Shown here one piece after another: positions 3,475-45,091 of a stretch of DNA of 64,000 nt. The notes under the pieces are model-generated. The model did no database searches. It had not been told where the DNA came from and was given only the letters and a program-made list of their open reading frames with translations. The stretch is taken from NCBI RefSeq assembly GCF_022662175.1, contig NZ_JAKMCR010000001.1, positions 1 to 64,000 on the forward strand, in the 5' to 3' direction. Each line of letters opens with the position of its first letter. Within the stretch, counting starts at the first letter, position 1. Source of the DNA: Aestuariivivens marinum. Its GTDB lineage: Bacteria > Bacteroidota > Bacteroidia > Flavobacteriales > Flavobacteriaceae. A program made the translations under genes and the position numbers.

Positions 3475-5910
3475 ATGAGATTTTTTTGTTTTGCTCTTGC
3501 CACAACCCTTATTTTAAGCTGTTCCAATTCCAAAACAAATCGCTCAAACCCCATCCATTATCTGCCAGAACAAGCTACGGTAATTATAGGATTCAACTCT
3601 GTAGAAAGCTTAAAAAGTAGCATTAAAAACAACGATTTTTTAAATCATTTTTCAAACACAACATCCTATAGTGATCTTGCTTCTAAACTAAGGTTTTGTG
3701 AATTGTTAAACCCTAAAAGCAAACTCATTTTAGGAATAGGCAAAAACAAACAGGATAGCTTGTTTTTTTCATTGGTGACCAAGTATCATAAAGGTTTATT
3801 TGTTAGGGATTCTTTACAAAATTATATTGAGGAAACTTTAAAGTATAACAACAAAACCATTATTAAATCAACATTAAATAAAGAAATTATATATAGTACA
3901 TTTATTGATAGCATATTTATGGTTTCTTCTTCAGAATCAATTATTGAAGAAGCCCACAAACAGGTAATTATTGATGATATGTTGGAAAAAATTAATAGTA
4001 CTATGGGATCTGATAAAGCAGTATCTTGCATAATAAAACCTAACAACCCATTTTTTAAATCGTTATTTATTAACGATTCTTTGTCTTATAATAGATTTAC
4101 AAATTATACGGCATTGGAAGTAGACATAAATCAAAACAAAATAACCTTTAATGGTATTACCAAGGCCATAGATTCAACTATGAGCATAATTAATGTTTTT
4201 AAACATACCATCCCCCAGGAAAATCAAGTTCAGCTTATTGCGCCATCTAACAGTGATGGTTTTATGAGCTTTACATTTCATGATTTTAATACACTTAAAA
4301 ATAACCTTACACAATTCAACCAAAAAGATTCAATTATAGAACAATATAACAGTCTATTTGAAAACATTATTGAAGTTGGCGTTATTTATCAAGGTAAAAG
4401 TCAAGCCGTTGTATTGAATTCTATTGATGTTATAGCTACTACTGATGCCTTGTTGGCAGAACAAACCAAAGCAGATACTTATAGGCAAGTTGACATCTTT
4501 AATTTTAGCCAGTTCGATGTATTTTCCAAAACTTTTCAGCCTTTAATTACACACAGTAATTTTTATTTTTATTGTGTTTTAGATTCTTTTTTTGTGTTTG
4601 CTGATACCATGGACATGCTCCAAAACATTATTGCCAATTACCAAAACAAAACAACTCTAAGTGAGTTTACACCCTACAAAGATAACCAAGAGGGTTTAAG
4701 CAGTGCATCTTCCTTAATGTTTGTAGCTAATGGTGAAACCCTAAAAAATGTTGTTTCCAAAAACATTGAAGACAACTTAAGTTTTAACCTAAATAATTAT
4801 AAAACATCGGTGCTCCAGTTTGTTTATGATTCTAATTTTGCACATGTAAATGGCATTATAAGTAAAAACAAAGCTAGAGCCATTGAACAAGCTGTTACAG
4901 AAGAATTTAGTATAAAATTGGATAGCGATTTATTGAACAGTCCACAATTTGTAACCAATCACAGGACCCGAGAAAAGGAAATTGTAGTACAGGATATTAA
5001 AAACAACTTGTATTTAATTTCCAACCAAGGAAAAATTCTTTGGAAAAAACAATTACACGGCCCAGTTTTAGGTAATATTGAGCAAATTGATATTTACAAA
5101 AACGGAAGACTCCAATTAGCATTTACTACTCCCCACCGCCTTTATATCATTGATAGAAATGGCAAGGATGTAGCCCCATTCCCTGGTAAGTTTAATGATG
5201 AAATAACGCAACCGCTTTCGGTTTTTGATTATGACCGAAATAAAAATTACAGATTGTTGGTTACTCAAGGTAAAAACTTGTTAATGTATGATAAAAGAGC
5301 AAAACCAGTTTCTGGATTTATATTTAAAGGCACTAATGATGATGTAATTTACCAACCACAACATTTTAGGATTGGAAGTAAAGATTACCTAACCATTAAA
5401 ACTAAAAACAAGGTCCACATTTTGGATCGCACAGGTAGGAACAGAGTCACTCCAAAAACAAATAGTGACTATTCCAACGAAGCCATATATTTATATAAAG
5501 ATAAATTCACTACCACAAGCATTGACGGCAAACTAATAACCATAGATACCAAAGGCAATACAGCTTTCCAAGATTTAAATCTTTTAGCACAGCATCACAT
5601 CTATACCTCATCAAAAACCTTGGTAACCCAAAGTGATAACAAACTTTCCATTAAGAGTAAAACCAGAGAGTTAGATTATGGTAACTATTCGCCACCTAAA
5701 TTGTTTTACATAAATGATAAAATTTATGTTACCCTAACCGATTTACAAGCCCAAAAAATATACTTATTCGATAGTCAAAATGAAATGTTGCCCAACTTTC
5801 CAGTTTATGGTAATTCTTTAATAGACTTGGATAATATAGATAAGGACAGAAACCTTGAGTTTGTAACCAAAGGGGATAATAATACCATAATCCTATACCA
5901 AATAAATTAA
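3475..5910 (+). CDS. Large lipoprotein with C-terminal propeller-like repeats
   Basis: 811 aa. The N-terminus (MRFFCFALATTLILSC) is a lipoprotein signal with the acylated Cys in LILSC at about residue 16, so the protein should sit on a membrane outside the cytoplasm. The first 470 residues form an alpha/beta region with no family I can name; DUF3352-like proteins have a similar feel. From about residue 490 there are repeated blades of the type 'I..N..G...W...L.GPVLG' and 'I.DRNGKDVAPFPG', which suggest a beta-propeller. An earlier start at 3390 in another frame is not coding. It is followed by a terminator at 6044-6078. Function unknown. Confidence 0.8.
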   Translation: MRFFCFALATTLILSCSNSKTNRSNPIHYLPEQATVIIGFNSVESLKSSIKNNDFLNHFSNTTSYSDLASKLRFCELLNPKSKLILGIGKNKQDSLFFSLVTKYHKGLFVRDSLQNYIEETLKYNNKTIIKSTLNKEIIYSTFIDSIFMVSSSESIIEEAHKQVIIDDMLEKINSTMGSDKAVSCIIKPNNPFFKSLFINDSLSYNRFTNYTALEVDINQNKITFNGITKAIDSTMSIINVFKHTIPQENQVQLIAPSNSDGFMSFTFHDFNTLKNNLTQFNQKDSIIEQYNSLFENIIEVGVIYQGKSQAVVLNSIDVIATTDALLAEQTKADTYRQVDIFNFSQFDVFSKTFQPLITHSNFYFYCVLDSFFVFADTMDMLQNIIANYQNKTTLSEFTPYKDNQEGLSSASSLMFVANGETLKNVVSKNIEDNLSFNLNNYKTSVLQFVYDSNFAHVNGIISKNKARAIEQAVTEEFSIKLDSDLLNSPQFVTNHRTREKEIVVQDIKNNLYLISNQGKILWKKQLHGPVLGNIEQIDIYKNGRLQLAFTTPHRLYIIDRNGKDVAPFPGKFNDEITQPLSVFDYDRNKNYRLLVTQGKNLLMYDKRAKPVSGFIFKGTNDDVIYQPQHFRIGSKDYLTIKTKNKVHILDRTGRNRVTPKTNSDYSNEAIYLYKDKFTTTSIDGKLITIDTKGNTAFQDLNLLAQHHIYTSSKTLVTQSDNKLSIKSKTRELDYGNYSPPKLFYINDKIYVTLTDLQAQKIYLFDSQNEMLPNFPVYGNSLIDLDNIDKDRNLEFVTKGDNNTIILYQIN

Positions 5911-6043
5911 GTATTATAAAAAACCCAATACATCATTGTTACATATCCTTAAGTTATTCTTATATTTAAACCAGCTATTAATCAATCCGTTACAAAATAA
6001 ACCAAAACTTTTTCCAATTAAAAAACAAGTCCTCAAATCTAGG

Positions 6044-39372: not shown

Positions 39373-39942
39373 TCACTTAACACCTATCTTTTTTACATAA
39401 TCTTTAATAGAAATATTATTAACAATAACATCATCCAAAACCGCCTCACCTGCTTTTACATAAACTAATGCATGGGTATCAATTAAGGAATCCTGATGAG
39501 CATTTCTTACCGCTACCTCAGCATCATAAGCTTTGGTTTCCTCAATATAATATCTATTAAACGGATATTGAATATTTAATTCCTTACTTTGTTTATTGTA
39601 CCATCTTGCCTTAGCATTCACAAAATTCTTCTTTTCATTTGGTAATAGTACTCGACTAATCTTTGACACTTTAGCATATCCTAAACTGTCTGTTTCAAGG
39701 TAAATGTAAAGATCCTCACCTCTCTGCCAGGTTGAATCTTTAGTTTCATACAACCCAACTTCAAAATCTAAGGCAATATATCTACCTCTAAATGGGTCTG
39801 CTGGATCAATAGGCCTTGTTTTAAACTTATATAATTGACCCTTAGCAAGAATATCTTCTTTACCAAGAATCATATTAATAGGTACAAAAATTTGTGCTAT
39901 GGCAACAACTATAAACAGTATAAAAATATGTATTGTTCTCAT
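39373..39942 (-). CDS. GDYXXLXY-motif protein
   Basis: 189 aa. An N-terminal transmembrane helix (IHIFILFIVVAIAQIFVPI) and the motif FRGRYIALDFEVG near residue 50, which is the GDYXXLXY family's signature region with R in place of D. The family is almost always encoded next to a DUF2157 membrane protein, as here (4-base gap). The pair is thought to form a membrane unit of unknown role. Confidence 0.88.
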   Translation of the reverse strand: MRTIHIFILFIVVAIAQIFVPINMILGKEDILAKGQLYKFKTRPIDPADPFRGRYIALDFEVGLYETKDSTWQRGEDLYIYLETDSLGYAKVSKISRVLLPNEKKNFVNAKARWYNKQSKELNIQYPFNRYYIEETKAYDAEVAVRNAHQDSLIDTHALVYVKAGEAVLDDVIVNNISIKDYVKKIGVK

Positions 39943-39946
39943 CTTT

Positions 39947-41242
39947 CTATTTTTTTAAATTCATTTTTCCTTCCTTTTGTCTTTTAAGCATAAAATAGTT
40001 GGTTAAAAAGAAGCCCAGACCAAATCCTAAAAACAATACTCCGCGAATTACAAAGGACATCTCTGTATCAAAAAACCTGCAAACTATTAAAACAGCTATG
40101 ATCAATAAACCATAGTTTGATATCCCAAAATGAAATGTGTCTGCTCCTTTTTTTATAGTCAAAATACCAATGGCCAAAATCAACAGGTTTATTATTATTA
40201 ATGGAATATATTTGTTATTAAAACCAGCAAAAAATACGATAGTAAATATTAGAAAAGTGTAATGGGTCAAATCAATTTTAGAAATCCATTGTTTAGCTAT
40301 GCCATATATCAATATCCCTATGGCAATTAGCAATAAAAATAGTGTGATATAAAATTCCTGTGAAGAATAAACTAATTCTGTTTTTTTTATTGCTTCCCAC
40401 ATCAAGTCAAAACTGGTTAACAAAAGCATATAAATGGTTCCCAATGAGCCTAAAACCAAATAGGCATTACCTCTTAATTTTAAATTACTAAATAATGGCA
40501 TTTTTCCAATGCTATAAAAAATGCCATATAGCACCACATACATTAACACACCTAATTCACTTGTCTTATGTACAAAGGTTCCTAGAACTATATTAAGACT
40601 TAAAGGAAATAACCAATTAAAAATAGAAGTAATGTTTGCAGCCGATTTATATTTTAAAAGTTGCCAATAATGAGGGAACACCAAACCCAAAAGCAATAAA
40701 TAATACCATGGAGTCTTTCCGTTGCTTAGATAAGAATATCCAAAATCTGCCGCATAAAATGTCATAAAAATGATGTGTAATATTGCTAAACTATGTGACC
40801 TTAAAAAATAAATTAATGGAAAACACAGTAATATCCATGTCAAAATGAAATCGCTAAAGTTTCCCGGTATATTATAAATTTGACTTATAAGAGATATACA
40901 TGAGCCGACCACAAAAAACAAAAGCGTACCGGTAGACTCTTTCCAAACATTGTTTTTATTCTTAAAAATTGAAATACCAACAAATACCTGTCCTAATACT
41001 AAGGGCAAAAAAGCCAAAGAGGTTTTGATTGATTTTGAAAAATCATCCCAATTATGTGCTAAAATCAATATAATTCCCAATCCTATTAGTAAACCACCTA
41101 GAACTCCAAAAACGGTAAACATCCTATTGGGGACATCTACTTTTTTGGATTGATAATAAGCTTCCATTTTTGAAGCACTTTCTTTTGATATGACCTGTTG
41201 TTCAACAAGTTCCTTAATATCATTTTGAATTTTTGAATTCAT
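39947..41242 (-). CDS. DUF2157 multi-pass membrane protein
   Basis: 431 aa. The cytoplasmic N-terminus (KIQNDIKELVEQQVISKESA) and first helix region VFGVLGGLLIGLGIILILAH match DUF2157, followed by about ten more transmembrane helices. Function unknown. Coupled to the GDYXXLXY gene. Confidence 0.9.
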   Translation of the reverse strand: MNSKIQNDIKELVEQQVISKESASKMEAYYQSKKVDVPNRMFTVFGVLGGLLIGLGIILILAHNWDDFSKSIKTSLAFLPLVLGQVFVGISIFKNKNNVWKESTGTLLFFVVGSCISLISQIYNIPGNFSDFILTWILLCFPLIYFLRSHSLAILHIIFMTFYAADFGYSYLSNGKTPWYYLLLLGLVFPHYWQLLKYKSAANITSIFNWLFPLSLNIVLGTFVHKTSELGVLMYVVLYGIFYSIGKMPLFSNLKLRGNAYLVLGSLGTIYMLLLTSFDLMWEAIKKTELVYSSQEFYITLFLLLIAIGILIYGIAKQWISKIDLTHYTFLIFTIVFFAGFNNKYIPLIIINLLILAIGILTIKKGADTFHFGISNYGLLIIAVLIVCRFFDTEMSFVIRGVLFLGFGLGFFLTNYFMLKRQKEGKMNLKK

Positions 41243-41368: not shown

Positions 41369-42115
41369 TTAAACGGTGTTTAAAATTATTTCACGACGCT
41401 CTATATAGGTAAAAACCAATACTGCCAAACCAATTGCAGATATAATGTGCTTAATGGAATGCCCACTTATGAAAGATAATGTGCCAAAAATTTCTTCATC
41501 ATAATTCTCACTTAGTTTAGCAATTATATATGCCACTATTAGCGTCCAATAGCCATAGTTCATAGTAAAACTAGATTTAAAACTTAACAGAATAATAGGC
41601 AATGCAAACATTGGATAAAACTGCACTAAAACATACGGTCTTAAATCATTAAAAACCACCCAATAAACAACAGATAGCATTCCAACAAAAACTAAAGGCA
41701 TTAAAAGCCTATTACCGAGTTTAGGGTTAATGAATTCACTCAAGATAATAGATACCAACGACATGAAAACTATTGTCATAGGTAATCTATCCCATACCAA
41801 AGATGAATTAGTTGGGCTTAAATGGTAATAACCCGAACCAATTGAAACAAGAATAATTCCAATGAAAAGAAAACAATATTGGATTTTGTATCCCAAAATT
41901 TTATTAACATTAATTAGACCCCAAATACCAACTATAGCAAATGGAATATTTGAAACAACATTCCAAAAATTAGCAACATTAAACCTTTCAACAGCATCAC
42001 TAAAGTTATGATATAATGGGTCTTGCGCTATTGGATCAATTAAAAAAACACCTATAGCCGAAAAAACAGCCAGGACAATTAATAAGCCCACTCCTATTTT
42101 TTCTTGTGTTCTCAT
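41369..42115 (-). CDS. Alkaline-ceramidase-like membrane amidase (CREST family)
   Basis: 248 aa, about seven transmembrane helices. Alkaline ceramidases keep a zinc site of three His plus Asp and Ser with the spacing S-x3-H, D eleven residues after that H, and a distant H-x3-H. This protein has S94 and H98 (GSGYYH), D109 (WDRLP, eleven after H98), and H219/H223 (HSIKH). All five are present, so it should be an active zinc amidase. In eukaryotes the substrate is ceramide; flavobacteria do not normally make ceramide but many make sulfonolipids, so N-acyl capnine or another N-acyl lipid is a possible substrate (inference). It is followed on the strand by DUF2157/GDYXXLXY after 126 bases. Confidence 0.88.
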   Translation of the reverse strand: MRTQEKIGVGLLIVLAVFSAIGVFLIDPIAQDPLYHNFSDAVERFNVANFWNVVSNIPFAIVGIWGLINVNKILGYKIQYCFLFIGIILVSIGSGYYHLSPTNSSLVWDRLPMTIVFMSLVSIILSEFINPKLGNRLLMPLVFVGMLSVVYWVVFNDLRPYVLVQFYPMFALPIILLSFKSSFTMNYGYWTLIVAYIIAKLSENYDEEIFGTLSFISGHSIKHIISAIGLAVLVFTYIERREIILNTV

Positions 42116-42152
42116 ATTTATAGCTTACAGATTTGAGTGAGTCATTGGTACT

Positions 42153-42632
42153 TTAAAACAAAAAAATCATATAAATAATAATGCCTTCAGCAATACCAGT
42201 AATTATACTCATACCCAGAATATCCTTAACCTTACTTCTTAAAAAGAATACGGTACTTAAAATAGCCATTATGGCTGCAAGCAAAATTTCCAATGCTCCT
42301 ATTTTGGACATTAGATAGGTTATGCCAGTAAATCCTACGGTAACTGCTAAGGCAATGATACAGAATCTTACTATCTCATTTTTGCTATAATTACCTTCGG
42401 TAAATCCTTTCTGTAAATCTCTCAAAATAGAAAGAATAAACAATAATGGCACTACAGACAGAAATGGGGCAAATACCACCTTAATGCCTTTAATAATGGA
42501 GAGATCATTGTAAAAAAAGAAAGCAATTGTTGTAAACAATAGTAGGCCTGTTACAATAATGGCTTGAAAGGTAAACAACAGTTCCCGTTTTGAAGCGTTG
42601 TTTTTTTCTGTGTTTTGAAGTACTTGTTGCAT
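42153..42632 (-). CDS. Small four-helix membrane protein (A)
   Basis: 159 aa, a polar start then four hydrophobic helices. It looks like a distant relative of the next gene: a central IKGIKVVFAPFLSVVPLLFI segment against VIKIIASIVFPIPMLFFV, and a C-terminal helix with a short Lys/Asn turn before it. No known family recognised. Encoded between the CREST amidase (37 bases) and protein B (31 bases) on the same strand, so one operon. Confidence 0.7.
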   Translation of the reverse strand: MQQVLQNTEKNNASKRELLFTFQAIIVTGLLLFTTIAFFFYNDLSIIKGIKVVFAPFLSVVPLLFILSILRDLQKGFTEGNYSKNEIVRFCIIALAVTVGFTGITYLMSKIGALEILLAAIMAILSTVFFLRSKVKDILGMSIITGIAEGIIIYMIFLF

Positions 42633-42663
42633 AATTTAAAATTTTGATAATTCCGCTTTTCTA

Positions 42664-43131
42664 TTATGAAGACAAAAAGAATACATGAATCGCAAGTGAT
42701 AATAGCACGCCGCTCAATATACCATTGGCCTTCAAATTATTATATAAGATAAAATTTAACACATAAGTGCTCACAGCAGTAGAGTTGATGAGATGTGCAA
42801 AAATCAAATTGTTTTCAAGGTTTTGATGTGTTAAAAACTCTATTAGTTGCATTATTCCTATTCCAGTTATTATAGTTAATAGCAATAATATGGTAGCAGG
42901 TTTTTGGTTTTTAAGTTTATAATCATCTGTATTTTGAGGCAAAAAGTGTTGAATTAAGATAAACCTAACAAAAAACAACATGGGTATTGGGAATACAATA
43001 GATGCAATGATTTTAATGACATCCTTGAGTGTCTTTATTTCATCATAGCCCAAAAATACCAGGTACACAAACACCACAACTGAAACACCTGTAGTTACCA
43101 AAAAAGCTATATTTAATTTTCTTAGTATCAT
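42664..43131 (-). CDS. Small four-helix membrane protein (B)
   Basis: 155 aa, four transmembrane helices, MILRKLNIAFLVTTGVSVVV start. Resembles protein A in size, helix spacing and several segments. No known family. It is the first gene of the run that continues into protein A and the CREST amidase. A partner or regulator of the amidase is possible, but nothing in the sequence proves it. Confidence 0.68.
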   Translation of the reverse strand: MILRKLNIAFLVTTGVSVVVFVYLVFLGYDEIKTLKDVIKIIASIVFPIPMLFFVRFILIQHFLPQNTDDYKLKNQKPATILLLLTIITGIGIMQLIEFLTHQNLENNLIFAHLINSTAVSTYVLNFILYNNLKANGILSGVLLSLAIHVFFLSS

Positions 43132-43582: not shown

Positions 43583-45091
43583 ATGTATGATTTAAAAACT
43601 ATAATTTCCACTTTTTCTAAAGATGACGCACAACGTTTTACATCATACTTAGAAAAAAAGAACAAACGACGGGATGCCAAAAACATACAATTATTCAAAC
43701 TGCTAAATGAAAACAGTTTGAACTCAGAAGAAATTTGTTTAAAGCTATATGGCGATCAAAAAAAAGACGCTTACCACGCCCTTAGAAAGCGCTTGTTCCA
43801 GTCTATTATTAACTTTTCAGCCAATTCAAGTTTAGAGGATGAAAACTCCATACAAATGGAGGTCATAAAATACATTTTGGCCTCACGAAACTACTTGCAA
43901 CAAAAGCAATATAAAGTCGCATTTAAAATTTTGCATAAGGCAGAAACCATTTCAAAAGAACATCATTTGTACCCTCTCCTTAACGAAATTTACCATACCC
44001 AAATCCAATACGCTTATGCATTTCCAAAGATTAAATTTGATGAAGTCATCAAAAAATTTAATTCAAATAGGGAAAACCATTTACTAGAAGACCAATTGAA
44101 TATCGTTTATTCAAAAATAAAGCTAAAGTTAGCACAGGAAGACACTAGTGATTTACAAACCATCTTAGATAATACTTTGAGCGAGTACAATATTGACATT
44201 ATTAGTCATCTATCATTTAAGACTTTATTTCAATTGATCAGCATTGTGTCTGTTTCTGCATTTGCCACCAATGATTATTTAAAAATAGAATCTTTTTTAA
44301 TTGAAACTTACAACAAAATATTATCCTATAAAGATAAAGAAAAGCAACCTTATTACCACATTCAAATAGTATATCATATTGCCAATACTTTATTCAGAAA
44401 TAAAAAATTTATTGATTCAGAAGCTTATTTGTATCAAATGCATGAACTTATGCTTCAGTATAGAAGTAAATATTATAATACCTTTAAGCTAAAATATAAT
44501 TTATTATTAAGCTTAAACTACAACTTTACCAATCGTCAAAATAAAGCCATTACAATCTTAGAGTCTTTTATTAATCAAAAATTTCAAGACACAGAATCTG
44601 TCTTGGACATCTATTTAAGTCTTGTAATGTATTATTTCCAAAAAGGAGAACTTAAAAAAGCACATTATCTATTTTTAAAGTTCTATCATTCTGATGCTTG
44701 GTATTCTGAAAAAGCTGGCAAGGAATGGGTTATAAAGAAAAGTTTGATTGACATTTTATTACATATAGAATTAAACCATATAGACTTGGTAGAATCCAGA
44801 CTGTTGAGTTTTAAGAGAAGTCATTTTAAATACCTTAGGAGTATTAAGCAAGAGCGTGCCATAACCTATGTAAAATTGGTGGAGTATTATTATAAACATC
44901 CAGAGCTTATAACCACAGAAACGTTTAAGGATAAGGTAGAATCTTCATTCGAATGGATTAGCTCACAAAAAGAAGATATTTTTGTAATGAGTTTTTATGC
45001 CTGGTTAAAAAGCAAAATGGAAAAACAGAACTTGTACAAGGTTACTCTTAAACTTTTTAATAATACCGAAACCATTCCATCAAAACTTTAA
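43583..45091 (+). CDS. Alpha-solenoid (TPR-like) protein of unknown function
   Basis: 502 aa, no signal or membrane helix. Almost wholly helical; the first 70 residues (TSYLEKKNKRRDAKNIQLFK and KKDAYHALRKRLFQSII) look like a small helical head, and the rest looks like TPR-like pairs. I recall this as a conserved flavobacterial hypothetical. It is followed 11 bases later by the outer-membrane-like gene and is likely co-transcribed. Confidence 0.75.
   Translation: MYDLKTIISTFSKDDAQRFTSYLEKKNKRRDAKNIQLFKLLNENSLNSEEICLKLYGDQKKDAYHALRKRLFQSIINFSANSSLEDENSIQMEVIKYILASRNYLQQKQYKVAFKILHKAETISKEHHLYPLLNEIYHTQIQYAYAFPKIKFDEVIKKFNSNRENHLLEDQLNIVYSKIKLKLAQEDTSDLQTILDNTLSEYNIDIISHLSFKTLFQLISIVSVSAFATNDYLKIESFLIETYNKILSYKDKEKQPYYHIQIVYHIANTLFRNKKFIDSEAYLYQMHELMLQYRSKYYNTFKLKYNLLLSLNYNFTNRQNKAITILESFINQKFQDTESVLDIYLSLVMYYFQKGELKKAHYLFLKFYHSDAWYSEKAGKEWVIKKSLIDILLHIELNHIDLVESRLLSFKRSHFKYLRSIKQERAITYVKLVEYYYKHPELITTETFKDKVESSFEWISSQKEDIFVMSFYAWLKSKMEKQNLYKVTLKLFNNTETIPSKL

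Follow-up and report, generated by a model that had tools for sequence, protein, structure and literature searches.

Human alkaline ceramidases cut fatty acids off ceramides. They have hundreds of relatives in bacteria, mainly in two phyla, and bacterial CREST groups were already flagged by Pei et al. in 2011 (PMC3146951), so the family was known beforehand; our literature search returned no measured activity for any bacterial PF05875 protein. One such protein is encoded in the window, i.e., the whole stretch of 64,000 nucleotides of Aestuariivivens marinum analysed here, next to two genes for small membrane proteins. What does this enzyme act on, and do its neighbours take part? Knowing the substrate would tell whether bacteria remodel amide-linked lipids by the chemistry of the human ceramidases.

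The gene (41369..42115, minus strand) encodes an integral membrane protein of 248 amino acids and is single-copy, a second PF05875 match being absent from the genome. A preliminary description, made from the sequence alone, had placed the protein in the CREST family, and both profile searches and structural comparisons agree with this. It passes the curated cut-off of PF05875 (Ceramidase; 49.9 bits for a cut-off of 32.5), with a match that covers only positions 20-150 of the 259 of the profile, and NCBIfam provided no name for it. A profile made of five homologues had one significant sequence match in the PDB, human ACER3 (6g7o, E 1.8e-5); the match to SIDT2 was weaker (E 0.01). Alignment of the enzyme profile with ACER3 using hhalign gave an E of 9e-7. 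The AlphaFold (AF2) model built from a 67-sequence alignment (pLDDT 96.2, pTM 0.91) shows the seven-helix CREST core plus one extra N-terminal helix. Once the solved structures with the highest Foldseek ranks were re-aligned, ACER3 was the top fold match (Z 16.5, rmsd 4.0 Å, 214 residues), followed by SIDT1, SID1, Myomaker, and AdipoR1, all of which have CREST folds (Z 12-14). GPCRs were also among the matches, below ACER3, which reflects a generic seven-helix likeness. Thus, the protein belongs to the ceramidase branch of the CREST enzymes.

The preliminary description had also singled out S94, H98, D109, H219, and H223 as an intact catalytic site with the spacing of human alkaline ceramidase. 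These residues are where it had put them, and all five are in register with the ACER3 site in the profile alignment, for which the ACER3 sequence was verified with that of 6g7o. S94 (codon 41834..41836; all codons are on the minus strand) is equivalent to S77 of ACER3, D109 (41789..41791) to D92, and the predicted zinc ligands H98 (41822..41824), H219 (41459..41461), and H223 (41447..41449) to H81, H217, and H221. The C-terminal HxxxH falls outside the local profile match and was aligned reliably using the motif and a global alignment. In ACER3, the five equivalent positions bind zinc or activate water, and mutating them leaves little or no activity (PMC9436119; PMC6303388). S94, H98, H219, and H223 are present in all 67 aligned homologues, which come from two main phyla, and D109 in 66 of them, as expected under catalytic constraint. 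A chance motif was ruled out because the pattern S-x3-H-x10-D...H-x3-H was found in 81 ceramidase-like ORFs and in none of the 645 other ORFs from the same loci with 150 residues or more. Since the five residues match those of ACER3 and are kept so systematically, there is a strong case for an intact CREST hydrolase with a putative zinc site. In one gammaproteobacterial homologue (L067, 6001-6771), the catalytic aspartate is replaced by asparagine (D109N); this protein may be inactive, or the change may be a sequencing error.

Other polar residues are invariant in the bacterial family, including D157, Y161, Q165, K200, and D206. Two more, also found in 67/67 sequences, occupy positions where ACER3 has different residues: R110 (41786..41788) takes the place of E93, and K222 (41450..41452) that of W220, the residue in contact with the carbonyl of ceramide in the docked complex of ACER3 (PMC6303388). 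The distribution of charges in the loops provides a clue on the orientation of the protein. Among the 67 homologues, the loops on the side of the termini have on average around 10 Lys/Arg and 2.5 Asp/Glu, whereas those on the side of the active site have 2.7 and 7.6, respectively, and the net charge is higher on the terminal side in every one of them (67/67). Given the positive-inside rule, this bias predicts that both termini are cytoplasmic and that the active site faces the periplasm.

The best explanation of these data, to which we give a probability of roughly 0.6, is that the protein is an intramembrane zinc hydrolase of the ceramidase branch of CREST that removes the N-linked acyl chain of an inner-membrane lipid located in the outer (periplasmic) leaflet. 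By analogy with ACER3, we infer an amidase reaction with a zinc ion held by three histidines (H98, H219, and H223), a zinc-bound water activated by D109, and an oxyanion stabilised by S94. The replacement of W220 and E93 by K222 and R110 may shift the preference from plain ceramide towards head groups that are anionic or polar. The candidate substrates are a sulfonolipid, N-acyl amino-acid lipids, N-acylated phospholipids, and exogenous ceramides. Several points count against this explanation: the C-terminal HxxxH is not covered by the local profile match, the calcium site of ACERs, needed for the activity of ACER3, is absent, and CREST also includes esterases and phospholipases (Per1/PGAP3), so that amide specificity does not follow from membership in the family.

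The last point leads to the most serious alternative, in which the enzyme is not an amidase but a CREST ester hydrolase or phospholipase, akin to Per1/PGAP3, or a transacylase. The H3SD zinc site also serves the members of CREST that cleave esters (PMC3146951), W220, the docking residue for the ceramide carbonyl in ACER3, is not conserved, and the gammaproteobacterial hosts need not make N-acyl sphingoid lipids. Yet the ceramidase branch is the nearest one by both sequence and fold, which leaves ester cleavage as a doubtful reading, if one to be taken seriously.

The mention of gammaproteobacterial hosts raises the matter of the distribution of the enzyme. A scan of species genomes revealed at least 539 relatives, the best 80 of which are mainly from Bacteroidota and Gammaproteobacteria. 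Sequences from Bacteroidota and Pseudomonadota are mostly apart in the phylogeny; the best tree requires five changes of label, and its deep support is weak. In the family of the window's host, the Flavobacteriaceae, the ceramidase-like gene is present in 10 out of 397 genomes. This patchy distribution, the mixture of Bacteroidota and Gammaproteobacteria among the hosts (of which many have marine names), and the predicted periplasmic active site would all fit an enzyme acting on ceramides or other N-acyl lipids that come from algae, prey, or detritus. We nevertheless regard an exogenous substrate as unlikely: no uptake or catabolic genes were recognised beside the enzyme in the neighbourhoods checked, and the recurrent neighbours tested in Gammaproteobacteria are mostly housekeeping genes; the neighbours tested there include carbamoyltransferase, RuvX, AlgH, FolD, and RecR. 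In three proteobacterial loci (L053, at 4880-6001, L063, and L083), the gene immediately before the ceramidase-like one encodes a class I/II aminotransferase; its NCBIfam matches are all below the cut-off, and no equivalog was assigned.

The preliminary description had favoured a narrower target, the N-acyl bond of sulfonolipids, and in this case the enzyme would be a sulfonolipid amidase (capnine N-deacylase) turning over the sulfonolipids of its own host. The genome of the window encodes an orthologue of SulA/CFAT, the cysteate acyltransferase (G000:C7:197523-198779, locus L094). Its PDB matches to 28eh, 'Cysteate-C-fatty acyltransferase' (E 3e-216), and to 7u7h (E 1e-171) are far stronger than that to the serine palmitoyltransferase 3a2b (E 3e-70), and it has the K281-equivalent lysine, which is diagnostic of SulA (PMC9304779), in the SulA-defining context SQMFAKSL. 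Hence, the host can probably make sulfonolipids. SulA/CFAT is also encoded by all 10 carriers of the enzyme gene in the family and by 11 of the 12 Bacteroidota genomes in a second set of 35 carriers, and K222 and R110 would suit a sulfonate. However, SulA/CFAT is present in 375 of the 397 Flavobacteriaceae genomes, and the complete overlap with the 10 carriers is therefore what chance predicts. None of the 22 proteobacterial carriers checked has SulA/CFAT (best E 8e-59, in the range of other oxoamine synthases), and K222 and R110 are equally invariant there. In these genomes, a serine palmitoyltransferase of the Sphingomonas type was not distinguishable from the other oxoamine synthases, so these hosts may still make sphingolipids. 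Finally, no genes for the biosynthesis of sulfonolipids or other lipids were found beside the enzyme gene in the neighbourhoods checked. At the level of genomes, the presence of the gene is thus largely unlinked to sulfonolipid capacity, and we rejected the linkage by co-occurrence. The sulfonolipid hypothesis gains no specific support from these surveys and seems quite unlikely, with the lipid staying as one of the possible substrates. Independently of the enzyme, the near-universal presence of SulA/CFAT suggests that sulfonolipid capacity is very widespread in Flavobacteriaceae.

The two genes upstream of the enzyme gene are on the same strand and encode small membrane proteins of 159 (42153..42632) and 155 amino acids (42664..43131). 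The gaps are of 37 bp between the enzyme gene and the 159-residue gene and of 31 bp between the latter and the 155-residue gene, and the three genes probably form one transcription unit. Downstream of the enzyme, also on the minus strand, lie genes for a DUF2157 membrane protein (39947..41242; PF09925, 110 bits) and a GDYXXLXY-domain protein (39373..39942; PF14345, 82.8 bits), both syntenic in relatives; the former is separated from the enzyme gene by 126 bp and may or may not be co-transcribed with it. A TPR-like protein of 502 residues, with TPR matches below the cut-off, is encoded divergently from the small-protein pair (43583..45091, plus strand). The preliminary description had called the two small proteins four-helical and had not recognised them. 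Four helices fit the 155-residue protein, whereas about five are predicted for the 159-residue one. Neither passed any family cut-off in Pfam or NCBIfam, and hhalign detected no similarity between them. The model of the 159-residue protein, from four sequences, has a pLDDT of 49 and is too poor for a structure search. Roles in anti-phage defence or a phage origin were discarded, there being no match in PADLOC and a single weak one in PHROG (for the 155-residue protein, E 0.0016, to a profile of 40 positions). In summary, both small proteins are genuine and conserved, and no known relative of either turned up in the libraries searched.

Their association with the enzyme is looser than the window suggests. 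The two genes occur together in 21 of the 397 genomes (ignoring two further weak matches to the profile of the 159-residue protein), and the TPR-like gene is divergent from the pair in every pair-bearing genome examined. The enzyme gene accompanies the pair in only 5 of these 21 genomes; in the other 16, the two small genes are directly adjacent to each other, divergent from the TPR-like gene. Conversely, 5 of the 10 genomes with the enzyme lack the pair. This is still an enrichment (5/10 vs 21/397, hypergeometric P 5e-5, uncorrected for kinship). A frequent order in Flavobacteriaceae is the divergent TPR-like gene, small membrane genes, the ceramidase-like gene, DUF2157, GDYXXLXY, and two alpha/beta hydrolases, with variations in the place of the enzyme gene: it is between the two small-protein genes in genome G388, between them together with a lipoprotein gene in G008, and downstream of the GDYXXLXY gene in G062. 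A YiaAB protein (PF05360) stands beside the enzyme instead of the pair in Algibacter and Aquimarina. Since the pair is mostly found without the enzyme and is replaced by YiaAB elsewhere, it forms a conserved unit of its own, which the enzyme joins as an accessory passenger rather than as a fixed partner, at a locus with many small membrane proteins. The operon of the preliminary description therefore holds in the genome of the window and is not a fixed association elsewhere. By the same counts, an obligate three-part membrane complex of the enzyme with the two small proteins is very improbable, despite the tight gene spacing in the window, the enrichment, and the enzyme gene being directly after or between the pair genes in several genomes.

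Two other genes were observed around these loci. In Aestuariivivens insulae and in G008, the ceramidase-like gene is followed by that of a predicted lipoprotein of about 152 residues that belongs to no Pfam family (L007, 6758-7216; L004, 2262-2726); it is missing from the window, where DUF2157 follows the enzyme gene. A lipoprotein-like peptidase candidate of about 550 residues, with the motif HEVAHGLG, is often encoded downstream of the pair in relatives (L154, L161, and L162) and is not at that place in the window.

Putting the favoured amidase reading together with the gene neighbourhood, one can tentatively propose that a bacteria-specific branch of CREST, with an active site on the periplasmic side, no calcium switch, and a cationic substrate site made up of K222 and R110, deacylates anionic N-acyl lipids of the membrane and cooperates with a new two-protein partner in some flavobacteria. 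This is a speculative generalisation, to be taken as such.

How does the enzyme compare with known systems? It adds a member to the known bacterial ceramidase branch of CREST and is not a new system. The nearest bacterial proteins to the alkaline ceramidases in the work of Pei et al. were the CREST 'hypothetical groups 1 and 2', which these authors proposed for tests of ceramidase activity (PMC3146951); as described, they are mainly proteobacterial, whereas the window protein is flavobacterial. Adiponectin receptors, SIDT1/2, and Myomaker share the CREST fold, albeit with lower Z scores and weaker sequence matches, and have additional domains or different functions. The YiaA/YiaB family, which replaces the small-protein pair beside the enzyme in Algibacter and Aquimarina, has no similarity to the 155- and 159-residue proteins that hhalign could detect. 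The closest relative of known structure, ACER3, has the seven-helix core and the S-x3-H, D, H-x3-H set in common with the enzyme, at an identity of about 17%. Still, the enzyme is not simply an ACER. Its extra N-terminal helix, found in 59 of the 67 homologues, is absent from ACER3. Its predicted orientation is the opposite one: a cytoplasmic N-terminus and a luminal C-terminus have been demonstrated for ACER3, relative to which the core of the enzyme would be inverted, in a way that resembles the proposal of Pei et al. for ACER2 and Per1 (PMC3146951). The calcium site of ACERs (D19-W-C-E-x-N24, E33, and the C21-C196 disulfide) is strictly conserved among them and important for activity (PMC6303388). 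The enzyme lacks the DWCE-N motif and C21, has no cysteine in that loop, and has N49 in the place of E33 (an asparagine in 64 of the 67 homologues); the equivalent loop has another set of invariant residues, Q31, H36, and D40. Together with the invariant lysine at the position of the ceramide-contacting tryptophan, the absence of this site is a concrete and testable difference from the human enzyme.
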